Assembly (NCBI GenBank): GCA_902552015.1
Contig: CACDFH010000001.1
Coordinates: forward strand, 32,065 to 96,064
DNA length: 64,000 nt
Source: an uncultured marine group I thaumarchaeote
GTDB taxonomy: Archaea > Thermoproteota > Nitrososphaeria > Nitrososphaerales > Nitrosopumilaceae
Direction of reading: 5' to 3'
The translations under genes were made by a program, and so were the position numbers. Each line of letters starts with the position of its first letter. Within the stretch, counting starts at the first letter, position 1. A model generated the notes under the pieces. The model did not search any database and had not been told where the DNA came from. It was given only the letters and a program-made list of their open reading frames with translations. Below are positions 56,523-64,000 of the stretch, one piece after another.

Positions 56523-56777
56523 TTGAATCTGTATTTTATTGCACTATTTGTATTGGTAATTGCTATTGCGCCAGGTACTGTATTTGCAGAAACCGTAATG
56601 GATAAGGATGTATTTGCTCCTGGGGCTCAATTTGATTCTAAACCTCTAGATGAGGCTCAGCAAGAAGAAGAGGATTTGACTCAAATTTGGACATATGCAG
56701 TAATCGCTGTAATAGGCATGATTATTGCAAGAATTGCATTTCAGGTTGTTAAGAAAAGAATGTCTAGGTCTACCTAG
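56523..56777 (+). CDS. Small exported/TM protein
   Basis: Signal peptide and C-terminal TM. Confidence 0.6.
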   Translation: MNLYFIALFVLVIAIAPGTVFAETVMDKDVFAPGAQFDSKPLDEAQQEEEDLTQIWTYAVIAVIGMIIARIAFQVVKKRMSRST

Positions 56778-57336
56778 TCAGTTTGTTAAAACAATCTGCA
56801 CATAAATCGTCTCTAGTAGTCATTCCACGTGGTAATTTGAAATTAAATTTTCTTACATCTGAAACTGAAAATTTTTGCATGAATCTTTTTAGCTCTTTTT
56901 TACATTTGTAGCATAGGTGTTTTCCTTCTAAAAGGAATCTCAAATTTAATCTGCTAAGAGTTGGTAAATCTGTCACTCCAAAAAACACCATCATGTTTAC
57001 CATGTATGGGTTTTCTGTGATAATTTGATCAAGTTGTGCTCTTTCCCCAGCTATCGCTAAATCAATCATTTCTCTCCATTTATCTCGAAGAATTTCTAGA
57101 TATTCTTCTATCTTTTCGTCCCCTTTTCCTGTTAATTCTATGATTAATTTTTTTTGTCCAAACAGACCTGTGCTGGAACTTGATCTTATCAATTCACTGT
57201 TGTCTAAAATATCTAAAATTTTCACTAGCTCATCTTTTTTTAAATTAACTCCATTTTTTATTCCGCCAAACGTTGTGATGCCTTTTTTTACAGCACCCAT
57301 TACCTTGAGGTCATTGGTATCTAATTCCACAAACAA
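56770..57336 (-). CDS. Hypothetical protein with C-terminal Cys pairs
   Basis: LCYKCKKEL and DLCADCFNKL pairs; N-terminal HTH-like region. Confidence 0.65.
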   Translation of the reverse strand: MFVELDTNDLKVMGAVKKGITTFGGIKNGVNLKKDELVKILDILDNSELIRSSSSTGLFGQKKLIIELTGKGDEKIEEYLEILRDKWREMIDLAIAGERAQLDQIITENPYMVNMMVFFGVTDLPTLSRLNLRFLLEGKHLCYKCKKELKRFMQKFSVSDVRKFNFKLPRGMTTRDDLCADCFNKLTR

Positions 57337-57607: not shown

Positions 57608-58468
57608 ATGGAAAATTTTGATTCTAGTATAATTGAGCCAATTGAAATGAGAATGGTAAAACCATCTCCATTTGAAGTTCGTCATAAAATTGATAAAAAA
57701 TCTTCAGAATTTCGTTCTCTTGTAAAAAGCATCTCTGAACATGGACTTTTACAGCCAATTTTAGTCAGACCTGTATCTCATGGATTTGAAATTGTTGCAG
57801 GATATCGTAGATTTGAAGCGTGCCGTTCTCTACGATGGAGACATATTCAATCAAAAATTCGAGAATTAAGTGACAAACAAACCTATGAAATTCAACTGAC
57901 TGAGAATATCCAAAGACAATCTTTTACTCCTCTTGAAGAGGCAGAAGCCTTCAAAAAATACGTTGATGATTTTGGCTGGGGAGGTGTTTCAGAATTGGCC
58001 AGTAAAATTGAAAAAAGTGAGGAATATGTATCTCATAGAATTCAGCTATTGAAACTCCCATCTAATGCAAAAAAGCAACTTATGCAAAATATGATTTCTG
58101 TTAGCCAAAGTTTAGAACTTTTGGGTGTGCCTTCAGATGAGCAGGCTGAAATGACTAGACGAATATATGATGAAAAACTTACAGTAAAACAGATTCGTTC
58201 TATCAAAAAAGCAAAAGCATCTAAGAAGGATGTATTGGAAACAAAAAAAGAGCAATCTCATAAAATCACCAAAAAAACAAAACTTGGTCTGAAGATGGCA
58301 TTAACTAGAATTGATTCTGTTGCCAATGAGGCTCATACCATTTCTGATCCTAAGATACGTAGTGAAGTTGTCACATACATGATGGACTTGAGATACAAAT
58401 TACATGAATTATTGGACGAAACTATCCATTTTGAAAGAGTAACTCTAAAGAAAAATCTTAAAATTTAA
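57608..58468 (+). CDS. ParB/Spo0J-like protein
   Basis: VKSISEHGLLQPILVRPVSHGFEIVAGYRRFEACRSL and LTENIQRQSFTPLEEAEAF; central HTH. Confidence 0.87.
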   Translation: MENFDSSIIEPIEMRMVKPSPFEVRHKIDKKSSEFRSLVKSISEHGLLQPILVRPVSHGFEIVAGYRRFEACRSLRWRHIQSKIRELSDKQTYEIQLTENIQRQSFTPLEEAEAFKKYVDDFGWGGVSELASKIEKSEEYVSHRIQLLKLPSNAKKQLMQNMISVSQSLELLGVPSDEQAEMTRRIYDEKLTVKQIRSIKKAKASKKDVLETKKEQSHKITKKTKLGLKMALTRIDSVANEAHTISDPKIRSEVVTYMMDLRYKLHELLDETIHFERVTLKKNLKI

Positions 58469-58998
58469 AGAAATGGCGGCATCCATTCTTTGAGAAATTC
58501 TTTGTGTTCTTTTTCGGTATATGAAAGGGCGTGTAATGAGACCTCTTTTGTTGGGGCGAAATCATACACTTGATATGTCTGAATAATATCTCCAAATAGA
58601 TTTCTGAAAATATCTGTCTCCTCGTCTGCTATTTCGACAGATGGAAATGCTCTGATTGTAATCCAATCTAATCCTCCTTTGGTACTTCCAGAAAATACAA
58701 CAAATGGTGCATCTGTTAGATATTTCTTCAAACTTTCAGTTCTCTTTTTTAGAGATTGAGATACCTTGAATGTAATTAGTGTAGTTCTAATAATTCTCTG
58801 TGGTAATTTTGTTGGGTTTATTGTAATTGAATATCCTGTTATAATTCCCTCTTCAGTTAATTTTGAAATTCTTGATTCAATTTCCTCTTGAGTAATACTA
58901 TGTCCAAATCCTTTCAGAAAATCCCATATTTCTGCTGAATCTTGTCTTGAATCCTTTGACAATGTTGAGATAATTAATTCGTCAATTTCGTCTGTCAT
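58465..58998 (-). CDS. Lrp/AsnC family transcriptional regulator
   Basis: DELIISTLSKDSRQDSAEIWDFLKGFGHSITQEEIESRISKLTEEGIITGYSITINPTKL. Confidence 0.82.
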   Translation of the reverse strand: MTDEIDELIISTLSKDSRQDSAEIWDFLKGFGHSITQEEIESRISKLTEEGIITGYSITINPTKLPQRIIRTTLITFKVSQSLKKRTESLKKYLTDAPFVVFSGSTKGGLDWITIRAFPSVEIADEETDIFRNLFGDIIQTYQVYDFAPTKEVSLHALSYTEKEHKEFLKEWMPPFL

Positions 58999-59095: not shown

Positions 59096-61399
59096 TTGTC
59101 GTACATACTTGATGAAAGTGTAGGTTATCTTGTTTTGATTGGAGTGGGAATGCTAATGGCATCTGTTGTATTAATTTTGGTAAAAGCTGAAACAAAATGG
59201 CTTGGAACAAAAAAAACATTTGAGTGGTTTTCTACTGCTGGCCGAACTGTAAAAACTGGTTTGATAGTTACATCTGTAGTATCTGCGTGGACGTGGGCTG
59301 CCACATTACTACAATCATCTACTGTAGCATATCAGTATGGAGTCAGTGGTCCATTTTGGTATGCTGCAGGTGCATCAATTCAAGTTGTACTTTTTGCAAT
59401 ACTGGCAATTGAACTGAAACGAAAATCTCCAATGTCTCACACATTTCCTGAAATGATTAATGCCCGTTTTGGTAAATCATCTCACAAAGTCTTTCTAAGT
59501 TTTGCATTTCTTACAAACATCATAGTCACTGCAATGCTTGTTTTGGGTGGTGCAGCAGTTGTAAACGCTCTCACCGGAATAGATGTCTATATCGCAGCAT
59601 TTTTGATTCCTGTAGGTGTAATTGCATACACGTTATTTGGAGGACTGAAAGCCACATTCCTTGCTGAATATTTCAACACCGCATTCATCTTTGTGGTCGT
59701 TTTGATCTTTGTCTCTGCCATCTATTTCACAAATGAAGATATTGGTGGTATTTCTGGAATGTTTGAAAAACTATCTGAGGCTGCTGTCATGTCTCCTGTT
59801 GATGGAAACGCTGCAGGTTCATTTCTTACTTTGGCATCCGTTGGTGCATTAATCTTTGGTATTATCAACATCGTGGGAAATTTTGGAACTGTGTTTGTAG
59901 ACCAATCCTATTGGCAACGGGCAATTGCATCTAGACCTCGTTCTGTCGTTCCTGGATTTTTGGTAGGAGGTCTTGCATGGTTTGCAATTCCATTTGCTTT
60001 GGCAACAACATTAGGTCTTGCAGCAGTTGCGGTAAATCTGCAACTTACTCCTTTAGAGATTAGCTCTGGATTGGTGGCACCTCTTGCGGCTGCTCACATT
60101 TTAGGCGACGTCGGCGCAATACTCATGCTTACTGTTCTATTTACCGCAGTTACAGCTGCAGGTTCTGCACAACTAATTTCGGTATCTTCTCTTATCACCT
60201 ATGATGTATTTAGAACATACATCAAACCGTCTTCCACTGGACGTCAGTTGATGAGAATCTCCAGATATTCTATTCTTGGTTTTGGTCTTGGAATGGGTGC
60301 ACTAGCATCAATACTATTCATGTCTGGCATTAGTTTACAGTATGTTTATCTGGCAATGGGTGTGCTGATTGGTTCTGCTGTAGCTCCAATATCGCTTGCT
60401 ATATTGTGGAAAAACACCAATCGATATGTCGCAACATCTGCTGCAATAATTGGATTGGGTTGTGGTGTAACTGTTTGGTTAGGATATGCATTTTCTACCT
60501 CTGGTGAAATATCTCTTGCATCTACCTCTGACATGTTTGCACTCTTGGCAGGAAATCTTGCATCCATCTTAACCAGCCTAGCAATTACTGTAATTGGAAG
60601 TCTATTCAGACCTGAAAATTTCAACTTTTCCAAACTCAAACATGAAATATTTGTCGTTGATGAGACAATTCGGAAAAGGCTTGAAAAAGAGACAAATGAG
60701 GAATCTCTCCAAAAAGCATCTGGATTTAGTAAACGATATGGTTTGTCATTAACTCTAATTTTGGTAGTAGCTTGGCCAATTCCATTATTCTTCTCAAATT
60801 ATGTATTCACTTCGACTGTCTATCATGTATGGATATGGGTTGCAATATTATGGGCTGTAGCTGCCGCATCTATGATCTGGATTCTTCCAATTATTCAATC
60901 TAGGGATGGTATCTCACACGTTTTGAAAAATATTGTAAAATCATCGAAACCTCGTAAAACTGACAAGTATGGGCATGATTTGAGTGATAATGAAATTGCA
61001 CAAAAAATTCTTGTTGCAGTTGACGGCTCTGTCTCGTCGATGCGCGCTTTGAATTATGTCAATTATGTAATGAAAGAATCATCAAACATCAAGGTATATC
61101 TCACACATATCATCGAGTGGTCTGATGACGATGAATCAATGGATGAGGAAATGACTGTCAAAATGGAACAAGATGGAAGAAAAATGCTTTTAGGAATTTC
61201 TCTGCCAAGCAAGCTAAAAAATTATGAAAGAATTGTAAAGCTTGGAGATCCTGCAAAAAAAATATCTGAACTTGCATCTTCATTTAATGTTGATACTATT
61301 GTAATGGGTCGTAGAGGTCTAAGTGATACTGATTCTGATTTAGGACATGTAACATCGAAGGTACTTTCTCTTTCATCCAAACCAATCGTATTGGTTTAG
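59096..61399 (+). CDS. DUR3-like sodium/solute (urea) symporter fused to C-terminal universal stress protein domain
   Basis: SAWTWAATLLQSSTVAYQYGVSGPFWYAAG; C-terminus KILVAVDGSVSSMRALNYVNYV...VDTIVMGRRGLSDTDSDLGHVTSKVLSLSSKPIVLV; TTG start. Confidence 0.9.
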   Translation: MSYILDESVGYLVLIGVGMLMASVVLILVKAETKWLGTKKTFEWFSTAGRTVKTGLIVTSVVSAWTWAATLLQSSTVAYQYGVSGPFWYAAGASIQVVLFAILAIELKRKSPMSHTFPEMINARFGKSSHKVFLSFAFLTNIIVTAMLVLGGAAVVNALTGIDVYIAAFLIPVGVIAYTLFGGLKATFLAEYFNTAFIFVVVLIFVSAIYFTNEDIGGISGMFEKLSEAAVMSPVDGNAAGSFLTLASVGALIFGIINIVGNFGTVFVDQSYWQRAIASRPRSVVPGFLVGGLAWFAIPFALATTLGLAAVAVNLQLTPLEISSGLVAPLAAAHILGDVGAILMLTVLFTAVTAAGSAQLISVSSLITYDVFRTYIKPSSTGRQLMRISRYSILGFGLGMGALASILFMSGISLQYVYLAMGVLIGSAVAPISLAILWKNTNRYVATSAAIIGLGCGVTVWLGYAFSTSGEISLASTSDMFALLAGNLASILTSLAITVIGSLFRPENFNFSKLKHEIFVVDETIRKRLEKETNEESLQKASGFSKRYGLSLTLILVVAWPIPLFFSNYVFTSTVYHVWIWVAILWAVAAASMIWILPIIQSRDGISHVLKNIVKSSKPRKTDKYGHDLSDNEIAQKILVAVDGSVSSMRALNYVNYVMKESSNIKVYLTHIIEWSDDDESMDEEMTVKMEQDGRKMLLGISLPSKLKNYERIVKLGDPAKKISELASSFNVDTIVMGRRGLSDTDSDLGHVTSKVLSLSSKPIVLV

Positions 61400-61555: not shown

Positions 61556-63568
61556 ATGAAAATTAGTTCTGTTGTAGTATTGTCGATGTTTCTTGTATCG
61601 ATTGCATCGATGGGACTAATTCAAAATGCGGATGCAGCTGGCGCAATTGAAGGTGAGTTTAAACTTGGAGAAGTGTTAGACGAATCCGTCGGTTGGTTTA
61701 TTGTTGTTGGTCTTGGAATGGTCTTTGCCGGAATCATATCTGCCGAGATTAAGATTGAAGAAAAATACCTTGGTAACATCCAAAGTTCTGAAGGATTCAA
61801 CACTGCTGGAAGAATCATTAAAACTGGTTTAACTGCAGCAGCAATCGTGTCAGCATGGACTTGGGCTGCCACGCTACTTCAATCTTCTACTGTCGCGTAT
61901 CTTTACGGTGTAAGTGGTCCGTTCTGGTACGCTGCAGGTGCAACAATCCAGGTACTTTTGTTCGGAATTTTAGCCATAGAATTGAAACGAAAGGCTCCAA
62001 ACGCACACACATTTTTGGAAATCATTAGAGCACGATTCGGTGCTGGTACTCACAAAATTTTCTTAGGTTTTGCATTAACATGTAACATGATTGTAACTGG
62101 CATGCTCCTACTTGGAGGTGCAGCCGTAGTAAACGGACTTACCGGAATGGACATTTCTCTAGCAGCATTCTTAATCCCAGTCGGAGTCATGATTTACACT
62201 CTGGTAGGCGGACTTAAGGCTACATTTGTGGCGGATTACATGCACACGGTCATAATCTTCATAGTGATTCTAACATTTGTTGCAATGGTCTTCTTCATCA
62301 GCCCAATTACTGGTGGTATAGAGGGCATGTATAACAAACTGGTGGAGGCGGCTGCGCTTAACCCTGTACTAGAGCCAACCTTTGTTGAAGGTGAGCCTGG
62401 TAATGCAATGGGTGCTTACTTGACAATGGCCTCGGCAGGAGGGTTAATCTTTGGAGTTATCAATATTGTAGGAAACTTTGGAACTGTCTTTGTTGACCAG
62501 GCTTACTGGCAACGTGCAATTGCTGCACAACCAAGTTCCACTGTAAAGGGATTCTTACTTGGTGGAATGTGCTGGTTCGCAATTCCATTTACACTAGCAA
62601 CTACTATGGGACTTACTGCGGTGGCGCTTGATGTGGAGCTAACTCCAGAGCAGGTGCAGCTCGGACTTACAGTTCCAGCAGCAGCATCCGTACTAATGGG
62701 TGAGATAGGTGCCATCATGGTACTAGTAATGCTGTTCATGGCTGTGACTTCGGCAGGATCTGCAGAATTAATTGCGGTGTCATCGTTGCTTACTTACGAT
62801 ATTTACCGAACGTACAAGAATCCGAATGCTACAGGCAAGCAGCTACTCAAAGTCAGTCGTGCGGTTATAGTTGCGTTTGGACTTGGAATGGGTGCGCTTG
62901 CGGTCGTTCTGTTAGGAATGGGATTAAGCTTAGGATTTGTATACTTGGCCATGGGCATATTGATTGGCTCGGCGGTTATACCTATCGCGTTAACGATTAT
63001 TTGGAATAAAACCACCCGTGCGGGTGCTGTTGCAGGAGCTTTGATTGGTGTAGTCCTCTCATTGACAACCTGGACAAGCGTTGCAGCATCAGAAGCTGAC
63101 GGAGTTATAGATATCGCCTCACTAGGTGGTGCATTCCCAATGCTTTACGGAAATGTAGTTGCAATATTATCATCTGGATTAATCTGTGTAGTAGTTAGTC
63201 TTGCTCAGCGTAAGACATTCGACTGGAAAGACTTGGACAAACATATGTCACTTGTCACTGACGACATGGAACAACACGAAATCACTGCAACAGAAGCAGC
63301 AAAGCGTGAACAAGACGAAGAACAACTAAAGAAAGCCTTCAAGTTCAGTGTTAGAGGTGGAGGCTTACTCACTTTGATATGTGTAGTCTTCTGGCCAATG
63401 CCATTATACTTCTCAGGATATGTATTCGACTTTGGATTCTACGGACTATGGGTAGGAATCGCAATTGCCTGGGTCAGCTGTGCAGCAGCAATCATCATCT
63501 TCATGCCGATTGTAGAAGCAAGAAAAGGCATTGCGCAAGTTGCAAGCGGCAAGAAGGCAACGGGCTAA
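61556..63568 (+). CDS. DUR3-like sodium/solute (urea) symporter
   Basis: SAWTWAATLLQSSTVAYLYGVSGPFWYAAG; paralogous to upstream gene without USP domain; N-terminal signal-like extension. Confidence 0.9.
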   Translation: MKISSVVVLSMFLVSIASMGLIQNADAAGAIEGEFKLGEVLDESVGWFIVVGLGMVFAGIISAEIKIEEKYLGNIQSSEGFNTAGRIIKTGLTAAAIVSAWTWAATLLQSSTVAYLYGVSGPFWYAAGATIQVLLFGILAIELKRKAPNAHTFLEIIRARFGAGTHKIFLGFALTCNMIVTGMLLLGGAAVVNGLTGMDISLAAFLIPVGVMIYTLVGGLKATFVADYMHTVIIFIVILTFVAMVFFISPITGGIEGMYNKLVEAAALNPVLEPTFVEGEPGNAMGAYLTMASAGGLIFGVINIVGNFGTVFVDQAYWQRAIAAQPSSTVKGFLLGGMCWFAIPFTLATTMGLTAVALDVELTPEQVQLGLTVPAAASVLMGEIGAIMVLVMLFMAVTSAGSAELIAVSSLLTYDIYRTYKNPNATGKQLLKVSRAVIVAFGLGMGALAVVLLGMGLSLGFVYLAMGILIGSAVIPIALTIIWNKTTRAGAVAGALIGVVLSLTTWTSVAASEADGVIDIASLGGAFPMLYGNVVAILSSGLICVVVSLAQRKTFDWKDLDKHMSLVTDDMEQHEITATEAAKREQDEEQLKKAFKFSVRGGGLLTLICVVFWPMPLYFSGYVFDFGFYGLWVGIAIAWVSCAAAIIIFMPIVEARKGIAQVASGKKATG

Positions 63569-63662: not shown

Positions 63663-64000
63663 ATGACGTCATGTAGCGGTTGTGGCCTCGTGCTTGGCAT
63701 GAAGAAATACAAATTCAATAAATTTTGGAGAATTCCAGGAAGTTTTTGTAAACCTTGCATGTTAAAAATTGGTCAAGATTGGGAAAAAAATGGCAAAGTA
63801 ACATTACCACAAAAACCATGTGATTTGTGTCAGACTGAATTTTTCTTCCTAAACACTGCATGGCAAGGAAAGAAGCAAAAGCACTTTTGTAATATTTGTC
63901 ATAAGGTAGCTGCAAGCGGCGTACTTCCAGACAAGAGCCGTGGTGATATGAAACAGAAGCTACCTATTCCAATGCTCATTATTGGTGCACTTGGAGGTTT
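63663..64000 (+). CDS. Multi-zinc-ribbon membrane protein (truncated by window end)
   Basis: MTSCSGCGLVLGMKKYKFNKFWRIPGSFCKPCMLKIG...PCDLCQTEF...FCNICHKVA; ends in hydrophobic PMLIIGALGG. Confidence 0.7.
   Translation, partial: MTSCSGCGLVLGMKKYKFNKFWRIPGSFCKPCMLKIGQDWEKNGKVTLPQKPCDLCQTEFFFLNTAWQGKKQKHFCNICHKVAASGVLPDKSRGDMKQKLPIPMLIIGALGG

Follow-up and report, generated by a model that had tools for sequence, protein, structure and literature searches.

In the 64,000-nucleotide stretch of marine thaumarchaeal DNA analysed here (the window), an open reading frame at positions 59096–61399 of the forward strand (767 aa, TTG start, no internal stop) encodes a DUR3-type urea transporter that continues, past its transporter body, into a universal stress protein (USP) domain. 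Beside it in tandem lies a second DUR3 gene whose product ends without such a domain. The reading we favor, to which we assign a probability of roughly 0.55, is that the USP tail is a cytoplasmic dimerizing domain that regulates urea uptake by sensing a ligand inside the cell, for which an adenine nucleotide is the likeliest candidate, and that the bare copy operates without this control.

The DUR3-USP gene and its distribution

The initial annotation described the protein as a DUR3-like symporter, an assignment that database searches support. A phmmer search of the PDB matched residues 4–629 of the fusion to three plant DUR3 chains with E-values of 1e-171 to about 1e-178, and these chains outscored any other SSS member by far; the protein also carries the Pfam SSF family at residues 46–453 (3.2e-25, above cut-off) and scores above the family cut-off for NCBIfam TIGR00813. 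The transporter body, as supported by the PDB DUR3 match, the AF2 model and hydropathy, spans residues 1–612 (59096–60931, plus strand). A rough method combining hydropathy with a count of positive-inside charges predicts 15 transmembrane segments, with the N-terminus outside and the C-terminus inside; because the Lys/Arg-rich loops fall on the side of the C-terminus, this end of the fusion, and with it the USP domain, is predicted to lie in the cytoplasm. The AF2 monomer of the whole fusion is of moderate quality (pLDDT 66) and superimposes on plant DUR3 9j7d with a TM(target) of up to 0.81, and in the structural alignment the fusion is 45% identical to the urea-bound plant DUR3. The full-length model also aligns, weakly, with KimA-c-di-AMP and with NKCC1/NCC (~760 columns, TM about 0.3, high rmsd); the KimA tail is described as PPAT-like and not as a USP (PMC10284832). 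Transporter and USP domain are joined by a variable linker, residues 613–632 (60932–60991, plus strand), with a mean identity of 9% among fusions.

The window belongs to Candidatus Nitrosopelagicus, a marine ammonia oxidizer, as a public record (L076) carries the fusion at 99% identity. At 0.84 Mb the host genome is 59% complete, and its contig stops where the window does. An assembly error can be dismissed as the source of the fusion in view of its full-length homologs, which occur at 91–99% identity in other Nitrosopelagicus records and at 55–66% identity in over 20 genomes belonging to other genera and families. A phyletic survey shows the fusion to be conserved across ammonia-oxidizing archaea (AOA), with full-length copies in 21 of the 201 genomes surveyed in the order and, when pieces cut by contig ends are counted, copies in 38 of 250 genomes of the family; the carriers comprise Nitrosopelagicus, Nitrosopumilus, Cenarchaeum and Nitrososphaera-type genomes. 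Outside the order, no fusion turned up when 300 genomes from across the phylum were sampled, and matches in Bacillales genome contigs span the transporter only, the five Bacillales DUR3 proteins that were measured being 516–559 aa long and devoid of a USP domain. Two side observations concern further copies. Several DUR3 or DUR3-USP genes of family f8 are broken or carry internal stops (L064 in G179, L065 in G128, L066 in G149, L067 in G131 and L068 in G195), which may reflect decay or assembly errors. The host genome may also encode a second transporter-USP fusion, for a frame of 799 aa that lies just beyond the window (L004; G000:C1:29671–29961, minus strand) matches Usp weakly.

Urea as the probable substrate

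The initial annotation proposed urea or another solute as the substrate, and three lines of evidence point to urea: urea-site residues, urease adjacency and co-occurrence with ureC. In Aspergillus UreA, the residues that make up or line the path of urea include W82, W84, Y106, A110, N275, N279, T282, D286, Y289 and Y437 (PMC9783183). All of them have equivalents, mapped by motif spacing, in both the window fusion and the bare paralog. In the fusion, W65-T66-W67 (59288–59296, plus strand) aligns with the urea-site tryptophans W82 and W84, and the segment N258–Y272 (NIVGNFGTVFVDQSY; 59867–59911, plus strand) with N275, N279, T282, D286 and Y289. The equivalent of Y437 is the least certain; near this position the fusion reads Tyr-Val-Tyr and the paralog Phe-Val-Tyr. 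Fusions of family f8 (L057–L063, L075) have WIW in place of WTW and Phe at the Y289 equivalent, and one has Gly at the D286 equivalent, changes that might correspond to a shift in substrate or affinity.

In Nitrosopelagicus (L076–L101, L156), the genes are arranged in the order ParB-like, divergent Lrp-like, DUR3-USP, DUR3, a 164-aa cysteine-rich protein and, on the opposite strand, urease. The window holds the start of the cysteine-rich protein gene, which sits between the bare DUR3 and urease, at 63663–63998 (plus strand), cut by the contig end. As an aside, urease beta and alpha are joined in Nitrosopelagicus in one open reading frame of about 700–720 aa (L156:2480–4579, L076–L101), and most relatives of this genus have separate ureB and ureC genes. 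Across the family survey, ureC is present in 35 of 38 fusion carriers versus 62 of 212 other genomes (p = 1.4e-13), and in the order survey in all 21 carriers (p = 6e-12), p-values that overstate the evidence since related genomes are counted as independent. The three carriers without ureC (G257, G262 and G288) are genomes of 57–85% completeness. The urease neighbourhood is a stronger argument than the co-occurrence statistics.

We consider it very probable, and well supported by inference, that urea is the substrate of the fusion transporter. The opposing view, that the protein carries some other small amide or a polyamine, draws on the transport of polyamines by some DUR3 relatives and on the altered D286 or Y289 equivalents of some f8 fusions. 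We hold it to be highly improbable, as the window fusion retains the urea-site residues, is 45% identical to a urea-bound plant DUR3, and belongs to a group of genes that adjoin urease and co-occur with it.

The USP domain and its putative ligand

The USP domain that had been read behind the transporter body (residues 633–767; 60992–61396, plus strand) is confirmed by profile, fold and phylogeny. Pfam Usp matches residues 636–767 of the fusion with an E-value of 1.1e-16 (62.1 bits against a cut-off of 24), and the domain modelled alone with AF2 from 48 archaeal sequences reaches a pLDDT of 90.7. Foldseek searches with this model return ATP-bound MJ0577 as the nearest structure (1mjh, TM 0.82) and TeaD as the third, and by model and search alike the tail has the five-stranded alpha/beta fold of the USP type. 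In phylogenetic reconstructions, the fused USPs form one clade with support of 100/100, separate from the USPs that these archaea encode as free proteins; L124, at first sight a free gene within this clade, is a fragment at a contig end. Between Nitrosopelagicus species, dN/dS amounts to 0.043 for the USP domain, 0.05 for the transporter core and 0.14 for the linker, with values of 0.04–0.08 on both sides of the linker. The equality of the USP and transporter core values establishes that the domain is maintained by selection.

A more specific proposal of the initial annotation, that the protein ends in a probable ATP-binding tail, stands in part. The quoted segment, GRRGLSDTDSDLGHVTSKVLSLSSKPIVLV, corresponds to residues 738–767 and is the final part of a USP domain that starts near residue 636. 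The USP fold, the adenine-side Asp and the resemblance to MJ0577 and TeaD all favor the proposal: the motif ILVAVDGS (61007–61030, plus strand) forms beta-1 and supplies the adenine-side Asp (D643), its DGS is invariant in 21 fusions, and the adenine-side Asp and Ser are invariant in the alignment of 48 USPs. What counts against it is the glycine loop, GRRGLSDTDSDLGHV (residues 738–752; 61307–61351, plus strand), which in the window fusion reads G-RR-G-LSDTDSDL-G-H-V. Compared with the canonical G-2x-G-9x-G-(S/T), this G-2x-G-8x-G-H loop is one residue short and has a His in place of the phosphate-binding Ser/Thr. The departure is general among fused domains, with a spacing of 7 or 8 in 26 of 26 (the loop of L042, without the first Gly, was read by eye) and His in 19, Ser in 4, Asn in 2 and Arg in 1 at the last loop position, so that Ser/Thr is absent from 22 of the 26. 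The free USPs of the same archaea, by comparison, show a spacing of 9 in 19 of 21 and Ser in all 21. The loop of the fused USPs speaks against a textbook ATP site and weakens the case for ATP binding in particular.

Altered loops do not necessarily preclude ligand binding, as degenerate USPs sometimes still bind nucleotides: AMP is bound by NE1028, whose loop spacing is 8, and ATP by both TeaD and KPN01444, whose loops are partly degenerate (PMC3673472). By analogy with these three proteins, it is plausible that the fused USP binds some adenine nucleotide. The same observations bear on a different reading of the domain, as a dimerization or stability module that has lost ligand reading and whose loop has degenerated for this reason. 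This reading accommodates the shortened loops of all 26 fused domains (by 1–2 residues), the missing Ser/Thr in 22 of them and the canonical loops of free AOA USPs, and it agrees with the absence of ligands from the PDB structures of completely degenerate USPs (PMC3673472). We nevertheless judge it rather unlikely. Some 25 divergent fusions show hardly any variation in their glycines, DGS start or GDP segment, the USP domain is under purifying selection no weaker than that acting on the transporter, and nucleotides are bound by NE1028 with its 8x loop and by TeaD and KPN01444 with their partly degenerate motifs. Another ligand, c-di-AMP, was suggested by KimA and KdpD. Diadenylate cyclase (DAC) domains were absent from 21 genomes of the order, in a search for which 11 of 14 controls were positive, and c-di-AMP is therefore unlikely to be an endogenous messenger.

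The bare paralog and relatives with kinase tails

As initially annotated, the adjacent paralog, a 670-aa protein encoded at 61556–63568 (plus strand), is without a USP domain and carries only SSF in Pfam. In a tree of AOA DUR3 proteins, a bare clade (92/71) is separated from a clade comprising all fusions (99/99), and the two sort cleanly, with no tail-less member in the tree's fusion clade and no tailed member in its bare clade. Branches inside the fusion clade are weak, and that of G009 is long. Four tree members of the fusion clade carry a histidine kinase instead of the USP; a fifth DUR3-kinase protein, L144, lies outside the tree. These proteins come from three genomes of family f2 (L050:7211–9967, L051, L052) and two of family f1 (L045:7352–10093, L144:3874–6540). 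Their tails consist of HisKA and HATPase_c domains with intact H and G boxes, and the two kinase types are only about 26–28% identical to each other. In f2 the genes run urease, UT urea transporter, DUR3-kinase, response regulator and ParB-like, and this family is probably Nitrosocaldus, an inference from a urease locus with UT and SSS genes as described (PMC5797428). Pfam scans of L050, L045 and L144 detected neither STAC nor PAS families; without a STAC domain, the DUR3-kinase proteins are not CbrA-type members.

The presence of histidine kinases in the same transporter clade indicates that the C-terminus of this clade is used for signalling. It is enticing to speculate, if only tentatively, that this C-terminus is an interchangeable signalling socket, occupied mostly by a USP and elsewhere by divergent kinases, nearly always in urease-bearing genomes. 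The clade might then represent an allosterically gated urea importer or a urea transceptor that couples uptake to the energy or nitrogen state inside the cell, with the Lrp-like gene as a transcriptional partner in its USP form and a response regulator partner in its kinase form.

Co-inherited neighbours and a possible sensory role

Upstream of the fusion, a divergently oriented gene at 58465–58998 (minus strand) encodes a 177-aa protein, a putative and divergent Lrp/AsnC-like regulator. In a profile search its residues 1–93 match LrpA 1i1g (7.6e-8) and it hits NCBIfam LrpA at 6.6e-9, a match under the NCBIfam cut-off, with the Pfam cut-off likewise not reached. An ortholog of this gene (E below 1e-60) is present in 36 of 38 fusion carriers and 0 of 212 other genomes (p = 2e-41); in both carriers that lack it (G288 and G395) the fusion lies near a contig end. 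Next to it, at 57608–58468 (plus strand), is a gene for a 286-aa ParB/Noc-like protein (Pfam ParB_N 3.9e-19, HTH_ParB 1.6e-16), which holds the same position in relatives. Seven Nitrosopelagicus genomes (G245, G246, G249, G250, G251, G256 and G258; L145–L151) jointly lack the ParB-like, Lrp-like and DUR3-USP genes, the missing block's site falling between the homolog of the gene at 56770–57336 and the bare DUR3. This joint absence identifies the three genes as a co-inherited unit, and since the seven genomes retain urease and the bare DUR3 alone, the fusion is dispensable for urease-bearing cells.

These associations raise the question of whether the fusion is mainly a urea sensor, whose USP domain relays the occupied or empty state of the transporter to an Lrp-like or ParB-like partner while the bare copy conducts bulk transport. 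CbrA and other SSS-kinase fusions act as sensors (PMC7918813, PMC7096432), the fusion clade itself includes kinases with intact motifs and, in one family, an adjoining response regulator, and both its distribution and the joint absence of the three-gene block link the Lrp-like gene to the fusion. Yet in many genomes of family f8 the fusion is the only DUR3 detected and must be capable of transport there, unless another channel does the work; moreover, USP domains are not known to signal in this manner, and the adjoining Lrp-like gene may be no more than a transcriptional regulator of the fusion gene. On balance, a predominantly sensory role appears improbable.

Proposed mechanism and comparison with known systems

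The suggestion of the initial annotation, nucleotide-dependent regulation of one of two tandem transporters, is a sound working hypothesis. Under the favored reading of the tail as a ligand-responsive regulator of uptake, USP domains would pair as a homodimer, like free USPs, beneath a transporter that would itself be dimeric, like plant DUR3. The paired tail would change how fast urea is transported, depending on a signal inside the cell that is most probably an adenine nucleotide (ATP/AMP) reporting energy state, and the bare tandem DUR3 would serve as a urea importer free of such control. This proposal of allosteric control rests on the alignment with LeuT-fold transporters bearing regulatory tails and on the ATP/ADP site in the KCC1 tail; the control envisaged would resemble that of TeaD on TeaABC and of the ATP/ADP-binding USP-like tail of cation-chloride cotransporters. 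The recurrence of the fusion beside the urease genes of many urea-using relatives suggests that a signal within the cell may switch urea uptake. One of the two urea importers carries a conserved, putatively regulatory domain and is accompanied by a co-inherited regulator gene, a combination that is a concrete candidate for such control, and environmental surveys that count dur3 as one gene combine two differently built transporters.

The transporters themselves are familiar. Residues 4–629 of the fusion share sequence, fold and urea-site residues with DUR3/UreA (Arabidopsis DUR3 9j7c/9j7d/9x5u; Aspergillus UreA), although the plant DUR3 match stops before the USP domain. An SSS urea transporter has been reported AOA-wide (PMC10432482, PMC7554672), as has the occurrence of two dur3 copies in marine AOA, with different phylogenetic positions and in proximity to urease (PMC10753782). 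The published dur3 copy 1 and copy 2 (PMC10753782, PMC5797428, PMC7554672) are the same genes as those described here, and the text searched in the three papers mentions neither a USP nor a histidine-kinase tail. A search of the openly available literature found no mention of a DUR3 with a USP or kinase tail.

Several known systems are built on related principles. TeaD (PDB 3HGM), an ATP-binding USP that regulates the ectoine TRAP transporter TeaABC, is likewise devoted to one uptake system and ranks behind only MJ0577 as a fold match; it differs in being a separate, ATP-bound subunit acting on another transporter class, whereas the window USP is covalently fused and has an altered loop. In the cation-chloride cotransporters KCC1 and NKCC1, too, a USP-like domain on the cytoplasmic side follows a transporter of the LeuT fold, and in the KCC1 tail the USP-like site holds ATP/ADP and resembles TeaD (PMC8280820); these cotransporters, however, have no detected sequence relationship to the fusion and are controlled by phosphorylation as well. 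The SLC5/STAC kinases (CbrA, CrbS, RpuS) combine an SSS transporter with a signalling C-terminus, as do the DUR3-kinase relatives, but they are not DUR3 proteins, no STAC or PAS domain was detected in the archaeal kinase fusions, and the window protein carries a USP rather than a kinase. Finally, some amino acid permeases and Na+/H+ exchangers of haloarchaea carry a fused USP (PMC12159084), and these proteins embody the same principle within the Archaea in other transporter families, SSS not being named in the text consulted.
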